Source: Calditrichota bacterium (GTDB taxonomy: Bacteria > Zhuqueibacterota > Zhuqueibacteria > Thermofontimicrobiales > Thermofontimicrobiaceae). From it: a DNA stretch of 51,467 nt. Under the pieces are notes generated by a model, which was given only the letters and a program-made list of their open reading frames with translations, did no database searches and was not told where the DNA came from. The position numbers were made by a program, and so were the translations under genes. Location: contig JAADFU010000144.1 in the NCBI GenBank assembly GCA_013152715.1, forward strand, positions 1 to 51,467, in the 5' to 3' direction. Below, one piece after another: positions 5,797-37,658 of the stretch. Within the stretch, counting starts at the first letter, position 1. Every line of letters starts with the position of its first letter.

Positions 5797-7083
5797 TCAT
5801 ACTAATTTTCCCCAAAGGTCATAGCTTTCGGCTTTTTCAATTTTTACCGGCAAAATTTCACCCGGCGACACTTCTCCGCTCACGTGAACCAGATTGTCAA
5901 TAAGCGGGCTGTCCCATTCTGTTCTCCCCGAGAAGGAACCGTTCTGGCTGTTTTCCTCATCAATTATTACGGGAAGGCTTCTTCCCACCAAGCCGTTGTT
6001 TTTTTTGTGAGAAATTTCGAACTGAATTTCCATCAGTTCCTGCATTCGGTCTTCTTTCACGGATTCGTCAATCTGTTCCGGTAGTGATGCCGCCGGTGTC
6101 CCGTCTTCCGGAATGAACTTGAAAGCGCCAAGTCTGTCAAACTGAATTTCTTTGACAAAACTTTTTAAAATGGAAAAATCTTCATCCGACTCGCCCGGAT
6201 AACCCACCATCACCGTGGTGCGAATTGCCATCTCCGGCACGAATTTTCTGAACTGCTCGATTGTTGTGCGAATATCTGCTGAGGAAGAAGGCCGGCCCAT
6301 TGATTTCAACACTTTGTCAGAAATGTGCTGAATCGGCAGATCCACGTAACGGCACAATTTTTCTTCTTCCTGAAAAAGCCGAATCAATTCCTCGGACACG
6401 TGCGCCGGATGCGCGTACAATAATCGAATCCATTGCAAATTGTCGATTTTTGTCAGAGAACGAATTAATTTGACCAGTCCGTTTTTTTCTCCCCAATCTC
6501 TGCCGTAGTAGGTCGTGTCCTGCGCCACCAAAATTAGCTCGCGAACGCCATGCTCCGCCAGTTCCTTTGCCTCACAAATCAGTTTCTCCGACGGCTGACT
6601 GCGATGCCCGCCTTTGATCAGCGGAATCGTGCAATAGCGGCAGCGATTGTCGCAACCGTCGGAAATTTTCAAATAGGCATAATGGGACGGCGTTTCCAGA
6701 TTTCGCCGGAGACCGTTTTTCTTTTTCTCAATTTTCAAATAATCGGCGATGCGTTTGCCAACGATTTCAAAATCTTTCTCCGGAAAGAATCCGTCCACTT
6801 CCGGAATTTCCCTTTTCAGTTCAGCGACGCTCATCTGCGCGAGGCAGCCGGTCACAAAAATATTTTCCACCTGCCCGAAATTTTTCAATTCCACAGCTTC
6901 CAGAATAGTTTCAATTGCCTCCTCGCGCGCCGGCAAAATAAACGCGCACGTGTTGATGACAATCGTGTCTGCCTTTTCCGCATCATCGACGAACTGAATT
7001 CTTTCGCTATCGATTTGAGCGCGCAGCACTTCCGAATCGACCACATTTTTCGGGCAGCCCAGGGTGATGATATTTATTTTCAT
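5797..7083 (-). CDS. rimO: Ribosomal protein uS12 methylthiotransferase RimO
   Basis: Radical-SAM enzyme that methylthiolates an aspartate of ribosomal protein S12. The N-terminal MTTase domain carries the three auxiliary-cluster cysteines C10 (ITLGCPKN), C46 (NTCAF) and C80 (TGCLAQ). The radical-SAM cluster is C144, C148 and C151 in SDGCDNRCRYCTIP. A C-terminal TRAM region (VGRSLPVIIDEE onward) completes the 428 residues. LGCPKNVVDSE distinguishes RimO from the tRNA enzyme MiaB. The start overlaps the ftsY stop by 4 nt, so the two are translationally coupled. Confidence 0.95.
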   Translation of the reverse strand: MKINIITLGCPKNVVDSEVLRAQIDSERIQFVDDAEKADTIVINTCAFILPAREEAIETILEAVELKNFGQVENIFVTGCLAQMSVAELKREIPEVDGFFPEKDFEIVGKRIADYLKIEKKKNGLRRNLETPSHYAYLKISDGCDNRCRYCTIPLIKGGHRSQPSEKLICEAKELAEHGVRELILVAQDTTYYGRDWGEKNGLVKLIRSLTKIDNLQWIRLLYAHPAHVSEELIRLFQEEEKLCRYVDLPIQHISDKVLKSMGRPSSSADIRTTIEQFRKFVPEMAIRTTVMVGYPGESDEDFSILKSFVKEIQFDRLGAFKFIPEDGTPAASLPEQIDESVKEDRMQELMEIQFEISHKKNNGLVGRSLPVIIDEENSQNGSFSGRTEWDSPLIDNLVHVSGEVSPGEILPVKIEKAESYDLWGKLV

Positions 7084-7994
7084 TGAAAAAGCGCCTCGAC
7101 AAATTCTTCCGGATCGAAAACTTCCAGATCACCAATTTTCTCGCCGACGCCGATGTATTTCACCGGAATCCCCAACTCTTTCGTAATGGAAAAAACAATG
7201 CCGCCTTTAGCTGTTCCGTCTAATTTTGTGAGCACAATGCCGGTCACTCCGACCGCGTCAGTGAATTGTTTGGCCTGATTCAGACCATTCTGCCCCGTTG
7301 TCGCGTCCAGAATGAGCAATGTTTCGTGGGGCGCGTCCGGAACGAGCTTGCCCAAAACGCGACGAATCTTTTTTAATTCTTCCATTAAATTGGTCTTTGT
7401 GTGCAATCTGCCCGCCGTATCGACGATGAGCGTTGCCACGCCGCGACTGACCGCCGCTTGTAACGCGTCAAAAGCAACGGACGCCGGATCAGCGCCGGGC
7501 TGGTTGCGAATAATGTCCACATGCGCGCGATCGGCCCAGATTTCCAATTGTTCGGACGCCGCCGCCCTGAACGTATCCGCCGCCGCCAGCAAAACCTTTT
7601 CATGGTCTCGTTTGAGAAGAGCCGCCAGTTTGCCGATAGTGGTAGTTTTTCCCGTGCCGTTCACGCCGACAACCATAATCACAAACGGGTTTTTTTCATG
7701 AACGACTTCGTCTCTCGTATTCTGAAAATCTTCTTTCAGAGACCGCAACATACCGGTTTTTAGAATGCGTAAAATATTTTCCGATTTTCTAATGCCTAAT
7801 TCTTCGACAGTATCGCGAACATTGTCCATCAATTCCATGACAAAATTTACGCCCAAGTCGCCGGAGATCAGCACTTCTTCCAGCGAATCAAAAAAATCCT
7901 CATCAATGTCAGGCTGTGATTTGACCACTGCGGTCACTTTTCCCAGCCAGCCTTCTCTGGTTTTGGTCAATTTTTGTTTTAACTTCCCAACCAT
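7080..7994 (-). CDS. ftsY: Signal recognition particle receptor FtsY (NG domain)
   Basis: SRP-receptor GTPase that docks ribosome-nascent-chain complexes at the inner membrane. Residues 1-95 form the helical N domain; the G domain has the P-loop VGVNGTGKTTT (109-119), DTFRAAASEQL, DTAGRLHT (192-199) and TKLDGTAKGG (256-265). At 304 residues it lacks the long acidic A domain of E. coli FtsY, as is usual in many phyla. The alternative, Ffh, is excluded by the missing M domain. It is directly upstream of rimO and overlaps it. Confidence 0.95.
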   Translation of the reverse strand: MVGKLKQKLTKTREGWLGKVTAVVKSQPDIDEDFFDSLEEVLISGDLGVNFVMELMDNVRDTVEELGIRKSENILRILKTGMLRSLKEDFQNTRDEVVHEKNPFVIMVVGVNGTGKTTTIGKLAALLKRDHEKVLLAAADTFRAAASEQLEIWADRAHVDIIRNQPGADPASVAFDALQAAVSRGVATLIVDTAGRLHTKTNLMEELKKIRRVLGKLVPDAPHETLLILDATTGQNGLNQAKQFTDAVGVTGIVLTKLDGTAKGGIVFSITKELGIPVKYIGVGEKIGDLEVFDPEEFVEALFQ

Positions 7995-30799: not shown

Positions 30800-32305
30800 T
30801 TATTCTACCTCCTCTTCAGGTTGTTCGTCATCAGAAATGCCGAGGCAGTCTTTGAGGAAGTCGAGAAAATCGAGAAACCAGCGTCTTTCCACTTCGCTCT
30901 TGTCCGAAATAATTCTTTCTGACGATTCGAAAAAGTCACTCAATTTAATATTTGCATTTCTCTCAAGACTTTTCATTTTTCTGCATAGCCATTCTTCTAA
31001 AAGAGGCATGTTTTGAAATACTGCGCCACCCAACTGCATAAAACACGCGATACAATAATCCAACTCAAATTCAGGTCTATTTTTTACTTCGATTATAATT
31101 TGTTCAAGGCTATTAAAGGTTTCAAAAACATAAGTCTCATTCCTTTTTTGAGTAGCAAATTTTCCCAGATCTGCCATAGCATCGGAAATTTTCAGAATGG
31201 GCGAACTTTTTTGAGGCAGGAATCTAAATGACAATTGCGACATTTGATTCAGGCAATTAAATACGGCATTTGTCGCATAAGTATAGTTTCTCGCCATGGA
31301 AAACATTCCGAATCGAGTAATTTGAACAACTATATTATGGTATTCTATTTCTTTGGGTGGTCTGTGCCTTAGCCCAGTTTTTGAAATTTCATCTAACGCT
31401 TTGATACTTTTTAAGATTGTCATTTCAGACAATCTGCCAGCGTTAGTTAGGGAAATATCGGCGATTTTCACTATCATTGGAAGCACAAACTTGGTCATCC
31501 TTTCCGGAGGACAATTTCCTTCAATAATGTAGAGAGCTGTTTCTTTCAACGACTCCAATATAATTTCTGAATTTCCTTCTTTTTTGATACTGGCCCCTAC
31601 TTCTCCAATACCATCTATCACATATAACAAAAAAATATCAATCTCTTTGTTTTCAAATTCATGCAATTTTTTTATCAAAGTTACAAGAACTTCAGCGCCA
31701 AGACTTACAATTTCCTCGTTTTCATTCCCTTGCAGAGAAATATATTCTCCCAAACTATCAATATCTGCGATTAAAACTTTCCTTAATTTTCTCACTTTAT
31801 TTTCGTCGGGAGTTTTCTCTGCACATGTAGCTAATCTTTTTGCTCGCTTTAAAATTCTCTGTTTTAACTTCTTTATCTTGCTGGAAGTCGAATGTTTTTT
31901 AATAAAAAAATAAAGGTAAGGTGCGATTTGTAACAAAGCACTAATAAAAATCGCTATACAGATTATGTCAGCCCATTTCTCATCAATCCAATCATAAACA
32001 AAATCATAAGATAAAAAAACAATGGCCACAATATAAAATGACAAATACCATGAAATAAAACTTTTAAAAATTGTTTTTAAATCTTTTTGCTGGGGAGTGA
32101 TAGTTAATTGTATGACAACTTGAGGAAGAATAAAAATCAATCCAAGTATCTCTGCCAAAATATCCGCCAGATTATGATTTACTGTGCGATCTGAGCCAAG
32201 ACTTTCCCAGGTAAAAAGAGCAAACAAAAAAGCAAACATAAGAACGAATAAATTCGCTAACGTTTCACAAACGATATCTTTCCATTGATTGTCATTTGCT
32301 TTCAT
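30800..32305 (-). CDS. Uncharacterised four-helix membrane protein of a signalling cassette
   Basis: Not recognised. The first ~170 residues hold four hydrophobic helices (ANLFVLMFAFLFALFTW; LAEILGLIFILPQVVIQLTI; FYIVAIVFLSYDFVYDW; IICIAIFISALLQIAPYLYF). The remaining ~330 residues look soluble and helical, with repeated amphipathic stretches reminiscent of HEAT/ARM-like repeats, and end in an acidic tail (DDEQPEEEVE). It probably acts as the output of the upstream kinase and regulator (inference from position). Start: ATG at 32305 overlaps the regulator's stop by 14 nt and follows GGGGA; earlier in-frame codons to 32347 lie inside the regulator gene. The locus is visibly AT-richer than its neighbours. 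It ends 15 bp from the convergent lamin-tail gene. Confidence 0.75.
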   Translation of the reverse strand: MKANDNQWKDIVCETLANLFVLMFAFLFALFTWESLGSDRTVNHNLADILAEILGLIFILPQVVIQLTITPQQKDLKTIFKSFISWYLSFYIVAIVFLSYDFVYDWIDEKWADIICIAIFISALLQIAPYLYFFIKKHSTSSKIKKLKQRILKRAKRLATCAEKTPDENKVRKLRKVLIADIDSLGEYISLQGNENEEIVSLGAEVLVTLIKKLHEFENKEIDIFLLYVIDGIGEVGASIKKEGNSEIILESLKETALYIIEGNCPPERMTKFVLPMIVKIADISLTNAGRLSEMTILKSIKALDEISKTGLRHRPPKEIEYHNIVVQITRFGMFSMARNYTYATNAVFNCLNQMSQLSFRFLPQKSSPILKISDAMADLGKFATQKRNETYVFETFNSLEQIIIEVKNRPEFELDYCIACFMQLGGAVFQNMPLLEEWLCRKMKSLERNANIKLSDFFESSERIISDKSEVERRWFLDFLDFLKDCLGISDDEQPEEEVE

Positions 32306-32732
32306 AAATTTCCCCATGACTGTTCTTGGCAAGCACTTCTTCGACAAATCGCATAAGCATGGTCCGATGCATCTGCTGCTTTGTTTTGATATTCTGAATC
32401 CCTAAATTTTTGATCTCATCAATAATGTTTGGATTTGTCACAACAGTAAAAACAATGACCCGATTTTTGTCGATTCTTGGCGCCTTCGAATCATCTCGAA
32501 AAAGCTTTATTAACAAATCCAATCCTGGGTAGTCAGTGTCTGCCACAAAATCATCTCCGATTCCGATCAACAAATCAAAGATGATGACATCAAAACGTGC
32601 TTCATTTAATCGCTGATAAGCCTCTGAGGCATCACCGACTAACTCCACAAAATGACCGGCGCGAAGCAGCGGTGCAACATATTCAATAAGCTGATCTTTT
32701 GCTTCGTCTTCTATCCATAAAATTCTTGCCAT
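32292..32732 (-). CDS. Stand-alone response regulator receiver protein
   Basis: A single receiver domain of 146 residues. Acid pocket E8-D9 in LWIEDEA, phosphoacceptor D53 in VIIFDLLIG, and the switch Thr in VIVFTVVT are seen. An expanded loop after D53 (IGDDFVADTDYPGLDLLI) lengthens the usual fold, and the lysine position falls in NIKTKQQ rather than KP. There is no DNA-binding domain, so output is probably by protein contact, most likely with the membrane protein encoded next. It directly abuts the histidine kinase gene (no spacer). Confidence 0.85.
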   Translation of the reverse strand: MARILWIEDEAKDQLIEYVAPLLRAGHFVELVGDASEAYQRLNEARFDVIIFDLLIGIGDDFVADTDYPGLDLLIKLFRDDSKAPRIDKNRVIVFTVVTNPNIIDEIKNLGIQNIKTKQQMHRTMLMRFVEEVLAKNSHGEIYESK

Positions 32733-34985
32733 TTATTTTTTCTCCCTTCGTTTTGGCAAAATGACTGTTACTGTTGTTAAATACGGGGGCTTTTTCCTTC
32801 CTTTTCTCGGGCCTATTCCCATAGATTCACCTTTATCCATAGGCTCGCTTTTTATATGGATATCTCCGCCATGTTTTTCCACTGTCTTTTTGGCGTCGGC
32901 AAGCCCAATTCCGGATCCGGTGCGATTCCAGTCGAATGAATGTTTTCCTCGATAGCCAAATTCAAACAACCTATCTATTTCTTCTCTCTCCACGGGTACA
33001 CCATAATTTACAATTTCTATTATCACGAGGTTTCTTTGTTCAAATAAACGAATATCAACAAACCCGCCTTTTCGATGATAGGAGTATTTAATAGCATTTT
33101 GAATAAGATTAGATAACATGCGATCTACGTGGGGCACTGATATTTCTATCATGACATAATTTTGCTTTGGCGGCACGATGGTTAAACCTTTTTGCTTGGC
33201 AAGATTGAAATACATGGCGATATTTTCTTTTATGATATTAATGATGTTGGTCTTTGTAAATTCGAACTCAGCCTCTTCGCCGGAAAAGAGATATCGCCTT
33301 AAAGATTCGATGACATTATTCGTTATTTTAGTGCTATTCAAGATTCTTCTGAGCAATTGCATAATGTAGGTATCATAAATCTCTTTAATTTCCTGCCTGA
33401 TCTCGTTGAGTTCCTCTTGAAATTCACGATTATCCAATTTCGCAAAATTTCTTTCCAATCGATTTGCTAATTTTAACATATCAAAAATTATTTCTCGGAT
33501 TAACAATTCTGATAAATCAGACTGCAAATATTGTTGCTTCCCAAAGACTAATTTTTGTTTCAAACCATGTACTTCGCGCACGAAGTCTTTCTTTCTTTCC
33601 TCTTGTTCAATTTTTTCTAATAAGACTTCTAATTTCTCAATTAGCTTCCAGGTAGTTGAATGATCAATTTCAAATGCATTGATTTTATCTATTGAAAATC
33701 TTAATCGATGTTCTAATATTTCAAATAATGTTTGTGCTGTACTATCGACACTCATTAATGGGGCAATATATTGATGAACAAACCTATCCATATCTCTCAG
33801 TGTCTTCGATAACGCCACTTCCTTTTTGTTTACCTCCTCCTGTAGCTTCATTCTCTCATCAATATCCACAACAATTCCCTGCCTGCCTATAACGCGCTCT
33901 GCAGCATCTCTTTCAATTGAAAAGTCAACTTGAACCCAAAAAGCTGTGCCGTCTTTTTTTTTCGCTTTAAGCCGGATATTATTTACTATATTCCCACCAC
34001 TTATTTCAGCATTTCTCAGCGTTTTTAAAAAAATTTCTTTTTGCGTAGGATCGGCATGAAATTTCATGATGTCTTGGCCTATCACATCCTCACGTGAATG
34101 GTAACCATGCATTTTCGCGTAGGTATCATTGCATTTCACAATAGTATGTTTTCCGTCTTCGTAATGCACTTCGTAATATCCGATAGAAAATTTTTCAAAA
34201 CTTTGAGAATACTTAATTTCATTTGTAACATCCGTAAACGTCCCTTCTCTGCCCAACACTTTTCCGTCTTCGCCGATCCACAATTTTGCATTTATTGAAA
34301 TATGTATATTTTTCCTGTCGCGACGCGTCATGCGCGCATGAAAATTGATTACTTGTTTCTCTTTATTTACAAGCTCCAAATACTGATTATACTTCTGTTT
34401 ATTTTTCCAAAACTCCCGTACATCGCGTCTAATTAACTGATCAGGATCCTCAAAGCCAAAAATCTTTGCCACTGCTCTATTTACAGTTACGAACTTATGA
34501 TCATTATTAACCCGAAAAACTCCGGAAGGCAAATCATCAAACATCTCTCTATAATGCGATTCCTCAGTGATATCCGTCAAGCTGCCGACATAATATTTTT
34601 TCCCAAACCTCCCCTGATGCACGCGGCAGCAATCCTCCACAGTAATAATTGTATCATTTTGGCGCTTTTTAAATTGAATTGGCTGCTTCTGTAAAAAACC
34701 TCCCTTCTGTTTTAGTTTCTCTAGTAATTCATCGCGCCTTTCAGGAAAAAGATAAAAATTTCTAATACTCAAATTATCCACTTTTTCATCACACGATATC
34801 CCAAGTATCTCCCGGCAAACTTCATTACAATATTGAAAATATCCTTCTTCATCGACCAGATAGATACCAATGGGTAAATAAGGGCCTGCTTTCCTGAGAA
34901 CATATTTGAAATCTCCAAAAAATATTGATTTTAAGTTTTGAAAAAAATCTGAAAGGATTGTCCTGAGGGATCTTTTGCAAACCAT
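32733..34985 (-). CDS. Multi-PAS sensor histidine kinase
   Basis: A 750-residue cytoplasmic-looking kinase. Three PAS-like domains are seen (about 25-140, 143-262, 263-387), each with NxxY/NxxF cores and PAC-like ends (VGSLTDITEES; REGTFTDVTNEI; RQGIVVDIDERM). A His-containing segment (DRFVHQYIAPLMSV near 405) probably contains the phosphorylated His. It is followed by about 170 helical residues before the ATPase: MLSNLIQNAIKYSYHRKG (N box), EIDRLFEFGYRGKHSFDWN and RTGSGIGLADAKKTVEKHGG. There is no clear membrane helix. The long helical region between His and ATPase is unusual. The first codon is ATG at 34985, after GTGAGT. Confidence 0.88.
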   Translation of the reverse strand: MVCKRSLRTILSDFFQNLKSIFFGDFKYVLRKAGPYLPIGIYLVDEEGYFQYCNEVCREILGISCDEKVDNLSIRNFYLFPERRDELLEKLKQKGGFLQKQPIQFKKRQNDTIITVEDCCRVHQGRFGKKYYVGSLTDITEESHYREMFDDLPSGVFRVNNDHKFVTVNRAVAKIFGFEDPDQLIRRDVREFWKNKQKYNQYLELVNKEKQVINFHARMTRRDRKNIHISINAKLWIGEDGKVLGREGTFTDVTNEIKYSQSFEKFSIGYYEVHYEDGKHTIVKCNDTYAKMHGYHSREDVIGQDIMKFHADPTQKEIFLKTLRNAEISGGNIVNNIRLKAKKKDGTAFWVQVDFSIERDAAERVIGRQGIVVDIDERMKLQEEVNKKEVALSKTLRDMDRFVHQYIAPLMSVDSTAQTLFEILEHRLRFSIDKINAFEIDHSTTWKLIEKLEVLLEKIEQEERKKDFVREVHGLKQKLVFGKQQYLQSDLSELLIREIIFDMLKLANRLERNFAKLDNREFQEELNEIRQEIKEIYDTYIMQLLRRILNSTKITNNVIESLRRYLFSGEEAEFEFTKTNIINIIKENIAMYFNLAKQKGLTIVPPKQNYVMIEISVPHVDRMLSNLIQNAIKYSYHRKGGFVDIRLFEQRNLVIIEIVNYGVPVEREEIDRLFEFGYRGKHSFDWNRTGSGIGLADAKKTVEKHGGDIHIKSEPMDKGESMGIGPRKGRKKPPYLTTVTVILPKRREKK

Positions 34986-35035
34986 GGTTACTCACCACTT
35001 TCGCAATTTTTGAGAGGCAATGATAATTTTGTTAT

Positions 35036-35064
35036 ATTATACAAAAAACATCCCGTATTGTCAA
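35036..35064 (-). promoter_or_regulatory. Consensus sigma70 promoter of the kinase cassette
   Basis: On the minus strand TTGACA (35064-35059) and TATAAT (35041-35036) are perfect consensus hexamers with 17-bp spacing. It is about 50 bp upstream of the sensor kinase. Confidence 0.85.
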
Positions 35065-35137: not shown

Positions 35138-35180
35138 AAAAAAAGCAACCGCAAAAAATACTGGCTTGCGATTGCTTTTT
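35138..35180. terminator. Terminator after the dipeptide epimerase gene
   Basis: AAAAAGCAACCGCAA pairs with TTGCGATTGCTTTTT with one internal mismatch and ends in T-runs on both strands. It lies 28 bp beyond the epimerase stop and may work in both directions. Confidence 0.75.
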
Positions 35181-35207
35181 ATTTCACTTTATCATCAAAA
35201 TTCAGAT

Positions 35208-36350
35208 TTAAAACTCCCCTTCTATCCCCAATCCAGGCCTATCCGGTAGAATCAGCTTCCCCTGGACAACATCCACCGCATGAAACGGATCATTCTTAAT
35301 GAGCAAATTTCCGTCCAGATCGGCGTAGTCGACAAGCGGACTGAGGTGTGCTGCTGCGGCGATGGCGACGCTGCTTTCGATCATGCAGCCGAGCATTATT
35401 TTCATGCCCAGACTGCGCGCCATCCAGATCATGCGCAAAGCTTCCTGAATACCGCCGCTTTTCATGAGTTTAATGTTGATGCCGTCGTACGCTGTGGCTA
35501 ATTTGGGAATGTCGTGCGCGGATTTTACTGCCTCGTCTGCGATTATCGGAATATTTATCCGTTCGCGCAGCCAGCGGGTTTCTTCTAACATTTCTGCCGG
35601 CAGGGGCTGTTCGATAAATTCTACGCCGTGAGTTTCCAGCCATTTAATTCTTTCCAACGCTTCTTCTTTTGTTTTCCAGCCTTCGTTAGCGTCCACACGC
35701 AGTGGCTTGTCCGTCACTTCCCTGACCGCAGCCATGATCTCCGGGTCGTTCTTTTTTCCGACTTTGATTTTCAAAATCGGATATTTTTCGGCCTCGCGGA
35801 TTTTTTGCTGCATCACCGCTGGCTTGTCGATACCGATGCTGAATGTGGTGAGCGGAGTTTTGGATTTGTCGAGACCTAAATATTGATACAGCGGCACGCC
35901 TAATTTTTTCGTCACCCAGTCCATGATGGCAATGTCAATAGCGCATTTGGCAGCGGTTTGTTCTTCCACTAAATCGCGGACTTGATAGCCCAGATCCACA
36001 AATTTCCAGGGATCCGCCTTTTCAACAATTGGTTTGGCTTTTTTGATGACCTCGACAGTGCTCTCCGCCGTTTCATTGTAGCGAACGTTCGGCGCCGCTT
36101 CGCCGATGCCGCTGACGCCATCTTGGGTATATTTCACAAAAACATTGTGTTTTACGTCTGATGAATTTCGTGAAATGGTCCACGTGTGTACCAGATTCAA
36201 ATCTCTAATTTTGTACTCAAGCATGGCTCCTCCATTGGTTCTTTGGCATCCTGCAATTTGAGAGAAAGAGGCGGCACCAGTGCCCAGCAAGCTAATGCCA
36301 GCAATGGCTTTTCCGCTCGTCCGCAAAAACTCTTTTCGACTCATTCGCAT
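35208..36350 (-). CDS. Exported L-Ala-D/L-Glu (dipeptide) epimerase, enolase superfamily
   Basis: Epimerises murein dipeptides L-Ala-D-Glu to L-Ala-L-Glu. Catalytic residues are K194 and K196 (ILKIKVGK), metal ligands D220, E247 and D272 (RVDANEG, FIEQPL, ADEAV), a second lysine K294/K297 (NIKLMKSGG) and the specificity motif DLDGN (344-348). The N-terminus MRMSRKEFLRTSGKAIAG resembles a Tat signal, though RK replaces RR, and SQIAGC gives a lipobox with C35. If processed it would be a periplasmic lipoprotein, whereas the known enzymes are cytoplasmic. It lies beside the NlpC/P60 gene, as in the B. subtilis ykf cluster. Confidence 0.85.
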   Translation of the reverse strand: MRMSRKEFLRTSGKAIAGISLLGTGAASFSQIAGCQRTNGGAMLEYKIRDLNLVHTWTISRNSSDVKHNVFVKYTQDGVSGIGEAAPNVRYNETAESTVEVIKKAKPIVEKADPWKFVDLGYQVRDLVEEQTAAKCAIDIAIMDWVTKKLGVPLYQYLGLDKSKTPLTTFSIGIDKPAVMQQKIREAEKYPILKIKVGKKNDPEIMAAVREVTDKPLRVDANEGWKTKEEALERIKWLETHGVEFIEQPLPAEMLEETRWLRERINIPIIADEAVKSAHDIPKLATAYDGINIKLMKSGGIQEALRMIWMARSLGMKIMLGCMIESSVAIAAAAHLSPLVDYADLDGNLLIKNDPFHAVDVVQGKLILPDRPGLGIEGEF

Positions 36351-36468
36351 GGGAATTTCCCTTCTTGTTTTGGTTTATTTTTTGTGGTTCAAAAATCAAA
36401 GTTTATCGTTCAAAGTTCATAGTACAGAGTTGCTGATTTTTTCCTTCCGCCCAAACCTCGAAACCTGA

Positions 36469-37620
36469 TTATTTTAAAATTCGCCGCGCTGCCTGAAAAT
36501 GTTTTTTGCGATAATCACTGTAATCATCGTGCTGGGGAAACAAACTATTGATGTGCACCAGACCATCCGAGTGAATGAATCTTCCGCCCCCCAAATACAT
36601 GGCGACATGGGTGATGTGATCTTTTGCGCTGCCGAAAAATAATAAATCACCGGGCTTCACTTGACTCAGTGAATCATCAATGGGAATTCCCGTCCCAATT
36701 TTCACTTGCATATTTGCATCGCGCGGCAATTGAATTCCGTTCCATTTGTAAATCGTCTGCGTGAATCCCGAGCAATCAAAGCCCTTGGTTGATTTTCCGC
36801 CCCAAAAATAGGGAATACCCATGAATTGTTTCGCCGTCCGAATTAAATCGTTCGCACCGGGCGCTTCTCTCGCGTTTAATTTTTTCTCAAATTCGACCAA
36901 CTCGGGCACGACAAATCCGGTTCTGCCGTCGGCAAGTTCAATCCGAAAATAGCCGCCTTTTTTGCTGACAAAACCCAGCCGATTGCCCAATACGACATCG
37001 CAAATCGGAAACGAGTTTTTCGCGGCAGGATTTTCCCAGACCTGTCCGTAATTTTGTTTGACGACTAATTTTTCTCTATCTTTCCAGTCATTCAAAAATT
37101 CGATATTTCCCACCGCAACGGATTTTCGCATCACCCAGCCGAGGTACTGATCTTCCAACTGCAAATAATACCAGCCGTCTCTTTTTTTGAGCAGGCGCAC
37201 TTCCGTTCCCAGCAGTCCCTGAGTGATAATTTCCTGGTTTACGTCAGGCCGGCGGCGCACCTGGGCGACACTCACGCGGATCACGCCGCAAGTATCTGCC
37301 CCCAAAGAAATATCCGGCAAAACAGTCAAACTGTCCACAACTGTAAGTTTTGTTTGAGCGCGAACTCCATCGAGCAAATCCTTCTTTGCCTGAGGCGATA
37401 ACAATTCTCCGCGCAGAATAATTTTTTTCCCGGAGCGATAGCCGTCCACGGAAAAAACTGTGACGCGTCTGTCAGGCGCAGCTTTCTGCTTTACTTGCTC
37501 GATCACTTGAGTCACTTCATTTGGCAATTCCCGATTCGCCTGGCAAGAGAAAATTAAAAGGCTAATGACTGCAATTGTCAATAACGCCGGAAAATATTTT
37601 CTAAATAATTTTTTAATCAT
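36469..37620 (-). CDS. SH3/NlpC-P60 murein endopeptidase lipoprotein (YkfC-like)
   Basis: Peptidase of 383 residues that probably cleaves gamma-D-Glu-diamino acid bonds of murein peptides. A lipobox (LLIFSC, C26) ends the signal sequence. Two SH3-like regions (about 110-170, 185-245) precede the NlpC/P60 domain with the catalytic C283 in KGFDCSGFTQ, H338 in DHITHVAMYLG and H350. Residues 30-100 form a BON-like helical/beta stretch. Start: ATG at 37620; an upstream in-frame ATG at 37656 is possible. It lies 118 bp before the epimerase gene on the same strand and probably supplies its substrate. Confidence 0.88.
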   Translation of the reverse strand: MIKKLFRKYFPALLTIAVISLLIFSCQANRELPNEVTQVIEQVKQKAAPDRRVTVFSVDGYRSGKKIILRGELLSPQAKKDLLDGVRAQTKLTVVDSLTVLPDISLGADTCGVIRVSVAQVRRRPDVNQEIITQGLLGTEVRLLKKRDGWYYLQLEDQYLGWVMRKSVAVGNIEFLNDWKDREKLVVKQNYGQVWENPAAKNSFPICDVVLGNRLGFVSKKGGYFRIELADGRTGFVVPELVEFEKKLNAREAPGANDLIRTAKQFMGIPYFWGGKSTKGFDCSGFTQTIYKWNGIQLPRDANMQVKIGTGIPIDDSLSQVKPGDLLFFGSAKDHITHVAMYLGGGRFIHSDGLVHINSLFPQHDDYSDYRKKHFQAARRILK

Positions 37621-37658
37621 AAAAACCCCTGCTGTTTTTTGAATGAAAAAATTCACTT

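Follow-up and report, generated by a model that had tools for sequence, protein, structure and literature searches.

On what does a response regulator without an output domain act when its gene lies between those of a histidine kinase and a membrane protein? Among archaeal response regulators, about 40% are stand-alone receivers; most of these have no conserved gene neighbours and hence their targets are unknown (PMC5847659). In the DNA analysed here (the window, which is the entire 51-kb contig of 51,467 nt, C144 of genome G000), a receiver has one constant neighbour. This neighbour is a membrane protein of an unrecognised family, and it has been retained in an archaeal lineage as well as in several members of one bacterial phylum. 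The nearest relatives in our contig scan are titled candidate division KSB1.

Gene layout and transcription signals of the cassette

The three genes and the signals around them are as follows.

30800-34985, minus strand: cassette of three tightly packed genes (kinase, receiver and membrane protein)
32733-34985, minus strand: soluble histidine kinase, 750 aa, PAS-PAS-PAS-DHp (with helical insert)-HATPase_c; three PAS domains and HATPase_c by Pfam; no transmembrane (TM) segment
33429-33701, minus strand: helical insert of the kinase, residues about 429-519, between the two DHp helices in the AlphaFold2 core model
32292-32732, minus strand: receiver-only response regulator, 146 aa, Response_reg E 8e-4, expanded β3-α3 loop
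30800-32305, minus strand: membrane protein, about 501 aa, four N-terminal TM helices and then a predicted cytoplasmic α-solenoid of about 14 helices
35036-35064, minus strand: sigma-70-type consensus promoter TTGACA-N17-TATAAT, 12/12 match
35138-35182, minus strand: intrinsic terminator of the upstream epimerase gene, 16-bp stem and U-run, -18.2 kcal/mol, z -5.2

The kinase and receiver genes abut without overlap. The most likely start of the membrane protein is the ATG at 32305 (alternatives are the TTG at 32347 and the ATG at 32317), and the receiver and membrane-protein genes overlap by 14 bp. The initial annotation described the genes as overlapping or abutting and took the overlaps to imply a fixed stoichiometry. 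The layout holds for the window; however, the relatives have gaps of 1-12 bp in place of the overlap. Because an overlap is no proof of stoichiometry and the relatives have gaps, the fixed stoichiometry is not supported.

The perfect promoter (35064-35036), which had been picked out in the same annotation, is the only one in the window, with a chance expectation of 0.01. At the equivalent position in G001 and G002, the promoter matches the consensus at 11 of 12 positions with 17-nt spacing, and the terminator is also present there in both. Because the epimerase terminator is followed by the cassette promoter and both are kept in G001 and G002, the cassette looks like a single transcription unit of its own, as judged by these signals. 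The genes directly upstream (35208-37656, minus strand) encode a mandelate racemase/enolase-superfamily enzyme (epimerase-like) and an SH3-NlpC/P60 peptidase. This pair is typical for cell-wall peptide recycling, and the two genes are kept as neighbours in the KSB1 relatives.

Kinase and receiver residues of a two-component system

The kinase possesses a clear HATPase_c domain (Pfam E 9e-16) and no transmembrane segment by hydropathy. Its H-box-like sequence, FVHQYIAPL, contains H404 within an FxHxxIxP motif that is invariant among the four homologues; the N-box (at N630) and the G-box are likewise invariant. Identity is 44-46% to the KSB1 homologues and 31% to the archaeal homologue. HisKA (PF00512) or another credible Pfam DHp match was found in none of the four kinase homologues at E up to 1.

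The distance from the H-box to the start of the ATPase domain is about 200 residues, which is unusually long, and this region is largely helical, as had been noted before. In the AlphaFold2 model of the kinase core, which is of modest confidence (mean pLDDT 63), a helix at 2-48 is followed by several short helices and by a helix at 140-188. In this model, the insert has pLDDT values of mostly 63-90, and the approximately 90 extra residues seem to form a helical subdomain within the DHp hairpin. The insert is the least conserved part of the kinase (18% identity). The N-terminus also varies: in G001, a genome of the same genus, the first 68 residues are 54% identical, as compared with 93% for the adjoining epimerase (L033 1-205 versus window 34700-34985). 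Therefore, the kinase appears to evolve unusually fast at its sensor end.

The best PDB sequence and fold matches are PAS/HisKA kinases of the HK853, WalK/YycG and PhoR type, which share the PAS input, an H-box-like motif and HATPase_c with the cassette kinase. In contrast to these kinases, the cassette DHp lacks a Pfam HisKA match and carries the extra helical residues between its helices.

The receiver scores 20 bits against a Pfam cut-off of 30.2 bits, and the archaeal homologue scores above this cut-off. The acidic pair (E8/D9), phospho-Asp (D53), Thr (T96) and Lys (K118) are invariant in the four homologues. The loop after D53 (β3-α3) is enlarged, and there is neither a DNA-binding nor an enzymatic output domain, in keeping with the earlier description of a receiver-only regulator with an expanded loop. 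Judged by these receiver residues together with the phospho-acceptor His and HATPase_c of the kinase, the cassette is a two-component system.

The membrane protein is predicted to carry a cytoplasmic α-solenoid

Hydropathy and charge pattern give the membrane protein four N-terminal TM helices with an N-in/C-in topology and a strongly basic stretch after TM4. In the AlphaFold2 model the TM part is uncertain, and residues about 145-490 form a solenoid with pLDDT values of mostly about 80-97. These results agree with the four helices and large helical cytoplasmic domain of the initial annotation. In a Foldseek search, the solenoid (residues about 168-487) retrieved generic designed repeats, karyopherin/ARM-type proteins and HEAT/ARM-like solenoids, with TM-scores of at most about 0.36 over the query. 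Thus, the cytoplasmic domain is confidently predicted to be a HEAT/ARM-like α-solenoid, an assignment of fold class and not of homology: the likeness lies in the stacked helical hairpins of the predicted model, and there is no sequence family match.

No credible family match for the membrane protein was obtained in Pfam, NCBIfam, PADLOC, PHROGs or PDB sequences. Thus, profile searches and structure prediction assign it to no known effector family. DUF2254 has a similar size and a similar layout of four TM helices followed by a soluble part. This family was rejected: the hhalign probability was 0.2%, PF10011 had no match in G000, G002 or G007, and a weak match in G038 was the shadow of a thymidine phosphorylase frame. 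MyTH4 (E 0.004, below the cut-off), Cytochrome-c551, EPS_sugtrans and other sub-threshold matches were scattered and not common to the homologues. An anti-phage defence system was also rejected: PADLOC has no family for the membrane protein, the kinase and receiver matches are at the level of generic domains, and no relatives were found in the viral contigs searched.

Conservation in the membrane protein is highest in TM2, with 13 of its 20 residues invariant among KSB1, and the junction between TM4 and the cytoplasm is also among the best conserved parts. The strong conservation of TM2 suggests that it probably does more than anchor the protein. For the TM region as a whole, the excess of conservation is weak: 42 of 501 rotations reached the same value in a rotation test. 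The solenoid evolves fast (20% identity), and it and the kinase insert are the two fastest-evolving parts of the cassette.

Alpha-solenoids commonly scaffold complexes, and that of the membrane protein resembles only generic HEAT/ARM-like and designed repeat proteins. The protein might therefore gather the kinase and receiver at the membrane and be itself inactive; the receiver would then have its target elsewhere or be a phosphate sink. We consider such a scaffold improbable, because the best conserved parts are TM2 and the TM4/cytoplasm junction, which would be unexpected for a mere anchor.

The three genes are linked in KSB1 bacteria and in an archaeon

Full kinase-receiver-membrane protein units are present in three KSB1 genomes: G000 (the window), G002 and G007. 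In G001, which is 73% complete, the contig ends within the kinase, at the same locus as in the window. Of the 82 genomes of the phylum, the same three are matched by the membrane protein, by the kinase DHp region and by the receiver (E<=1e-20).

When GTDB contigs were scanned with the kinase alignment, a full-length kinase was found in a Theionarchaea contig (L013), followed directly by a receiver and then a four-TM protein. The proteins of this cassette are 20-33% identical to their KSB1 counterparts. The archaeal and KSB1 membrane proteins are homologous and align over nearly their full length (hhalign probability 96%, E 5e-9, about 20% identity). In the archaeal phylum, only one of 115 genomes has the membrane protein, and it is also the only one with a strong match to the kinase region (E below 1e-70); a weak match in G088 (E 9e-4) covers part of the region only. 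Another gene on the archaeal contig has its best score with archaeal GTP cyclohydrolase IV, although it does not reach the family cut-off, and the GC3 of the archaeal cassette resembles that of neighbouring genes. Therefore, a binning error is unlikely to account for this copy. Around it (L013/L053), several radical SAM/SPASM-like and PqqD-like genes were seen by eye, which suggests a peptide-modification island.

The gene order and tight spacing, with overlaps or gaps of at most 14 bp, are common to all four complete members known (the window, G002, G007 and L013). The linkage of the three genes is conserved across KSB1 and in one archaeal contig. The kinase region and the membrane protein never occur separately among the 197 genomes of the two phyla, and no homologue lacking a linked kinase or receiver was found in the genomes searched, which bears out the expected co-occurrence. 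The absence of orphan copies from the searched genomes, together with an arrangement kept from bacteria to an archaeon at 20-33% identity and at two different KSB1 loci, makes it very unlikely that the membrane protein is a mere neighbour in the operon and functionally unconnected with the other two proteins.

Because the collection scans used short exact patterns, the true spread is probably underestimated. No match was found among the plasmids searched or in 400 Chloroflexota genomes, a set that had no positive control. L015-L017 were rejected as cassette homologues, since they show PAS or ATPase similarity only, without a cassette. In L015, from an unclassified bacterium, two PAS domains of the same type are fused to a C-terminal domain (5962-7122), which by eye may have a nucleoside-deoxyribosyltransferase-like fold. 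Literature searches returned no description of such a cassette. The cassette is a genuine, conserved and apparently undescribed signalling unit, as first supposed, made of known kinds of parts and one unrecognised membrane family.

Proposed action of the receiver on the membrane protein

We propose, with a probability of about 0.5, that the cassette is a dedicated two-component system in which the solenoid membrane protein is the output and is controlled through contact with the receiver. The cytosolic three-PAS kinase would sense an intracellular cue and autophosphorylate on H404, from which the phosphoryl group would pass to D53 of the receiver. The receiver would then dock on the cytoplasmic α-solenoid of the four-TM protein. 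This docking may change the state of the membrane part and with it a channel, transport or other membrane activity. Because the receiver has no DNA-binding or enzymatic domain, it is expected to act by contact; since the solenoid offers an evident place for docking and no stretch of the protein is better conserved than TM2, we favour the membrane protein as the output. The confidently predicted solenoid is of a kind that usually binds proteins, which also counts for an output. The weak rotation test of the TM region and the small number of complete members count against it. Which way the signal runs (membrane protein as output or as sensor), what the signal is and what the membrane part does are matters that we infer here.

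The initial annotation likewise took the membrane protein to be an output regulated by protein contact. This is plausible, but the protein could instead be a membrane-side sensor or a scaffold. As a sensor, it would detect a membrane or external condition and control the kinase through the solenoid, perhaps at the DHp insert, and the target of the receiver would be unlinked. The kinase itself lacks TM segments, and the helical subdomain in the DHp hairpin is a place where regulators could bind. Moreover, the fast-evolving insert and solenoid could contact each other, which would favour signalling from membrane to kinase over the output model. Membrane transporter-kinase sensors such as CbrA exist, in which a membrane protein is likewise joined to a histidine kinase (PMC13022988). 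However, CbrA is one fused chain, whereas the cassette encodes separate proteins, with a four-TM protein of no recognised family. Three PAS domains already supply inputs to the kinase, and the receiver would be left without a linked target. We therefore regard a membrane-side sensor as somewhat unlikely.

Action of the receiver on the membrane protein as output would have parallels. Protein contact is the presumed mode of action of most archaeal receiver-only regulators (PMC5847659), and in the CheY-CheF-archaellum system, a single-domain receiver is believed to act by contact on a membrane-linked target (PMC9126983). The cassette resembles this system and the CheY-flagellar motor system in having a single-domain receiver with an intact active site and, as proposed, a membrane-linked target. 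In contrast, its kinase is a PAS kinase and not CheA, its receiver has the expanded β3-α3 loop, and its membrane protein showed no relation to FliM or CheF in the searches. A chemotaxis system was rejected because no chemotaxis genes adjoin the cassette: neither CheA nor any other was seen among the neighbours at four loci.

The arrangement, shared by one archaeon and a few deep-branching KSB1 bacteria, points to a two-component pathway that is connected to a membrane protein instead of a gene switch. If the contact is real, the cassette would be a concrete and testable example of a membrane protein under post-translational two-component control. More tentatively, and on balance unlikely, the four-TM solenoid protein may found a family of receiver-gated channels, transporters or membrane enzymes that a phosphorylated stand-alone receiver switches directly. 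The kinase would then form a subclass whose DHp insert keeps the complex together, and bacteria and archaea would have exchanged the whole as one unit.

Base composition of the cassette

The cassette is visibly AT-richer than its flanks, as was remarked at the outset. Its GC content is 0.34-0.40, as compared with mostly 0.43-0.50 for the rest of the window, and its GC3 is 0.31-0.39 versus 0.52 +/- 0.03 for the other genes of the window, one methylase excepted. We considered a recent horizontal insertion in the source genome and rejected it. Because the unit occupies the same locus in G001 and G002 and the orthologous unit of G002 is likewise AT-richer than its flanks, the AT-richness does not mark a recent insertion. 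The G007 unit lies at a different locus and has ordinary GC3. The excepted methylase gene (N6/N4 DNA methylase, PF01555; 19964-20854, minus strand) has a GC3 of 0.31 versus about 0.52 around it; it is the one AT-rich gene of the window outside the cassette and was possibly acquired.
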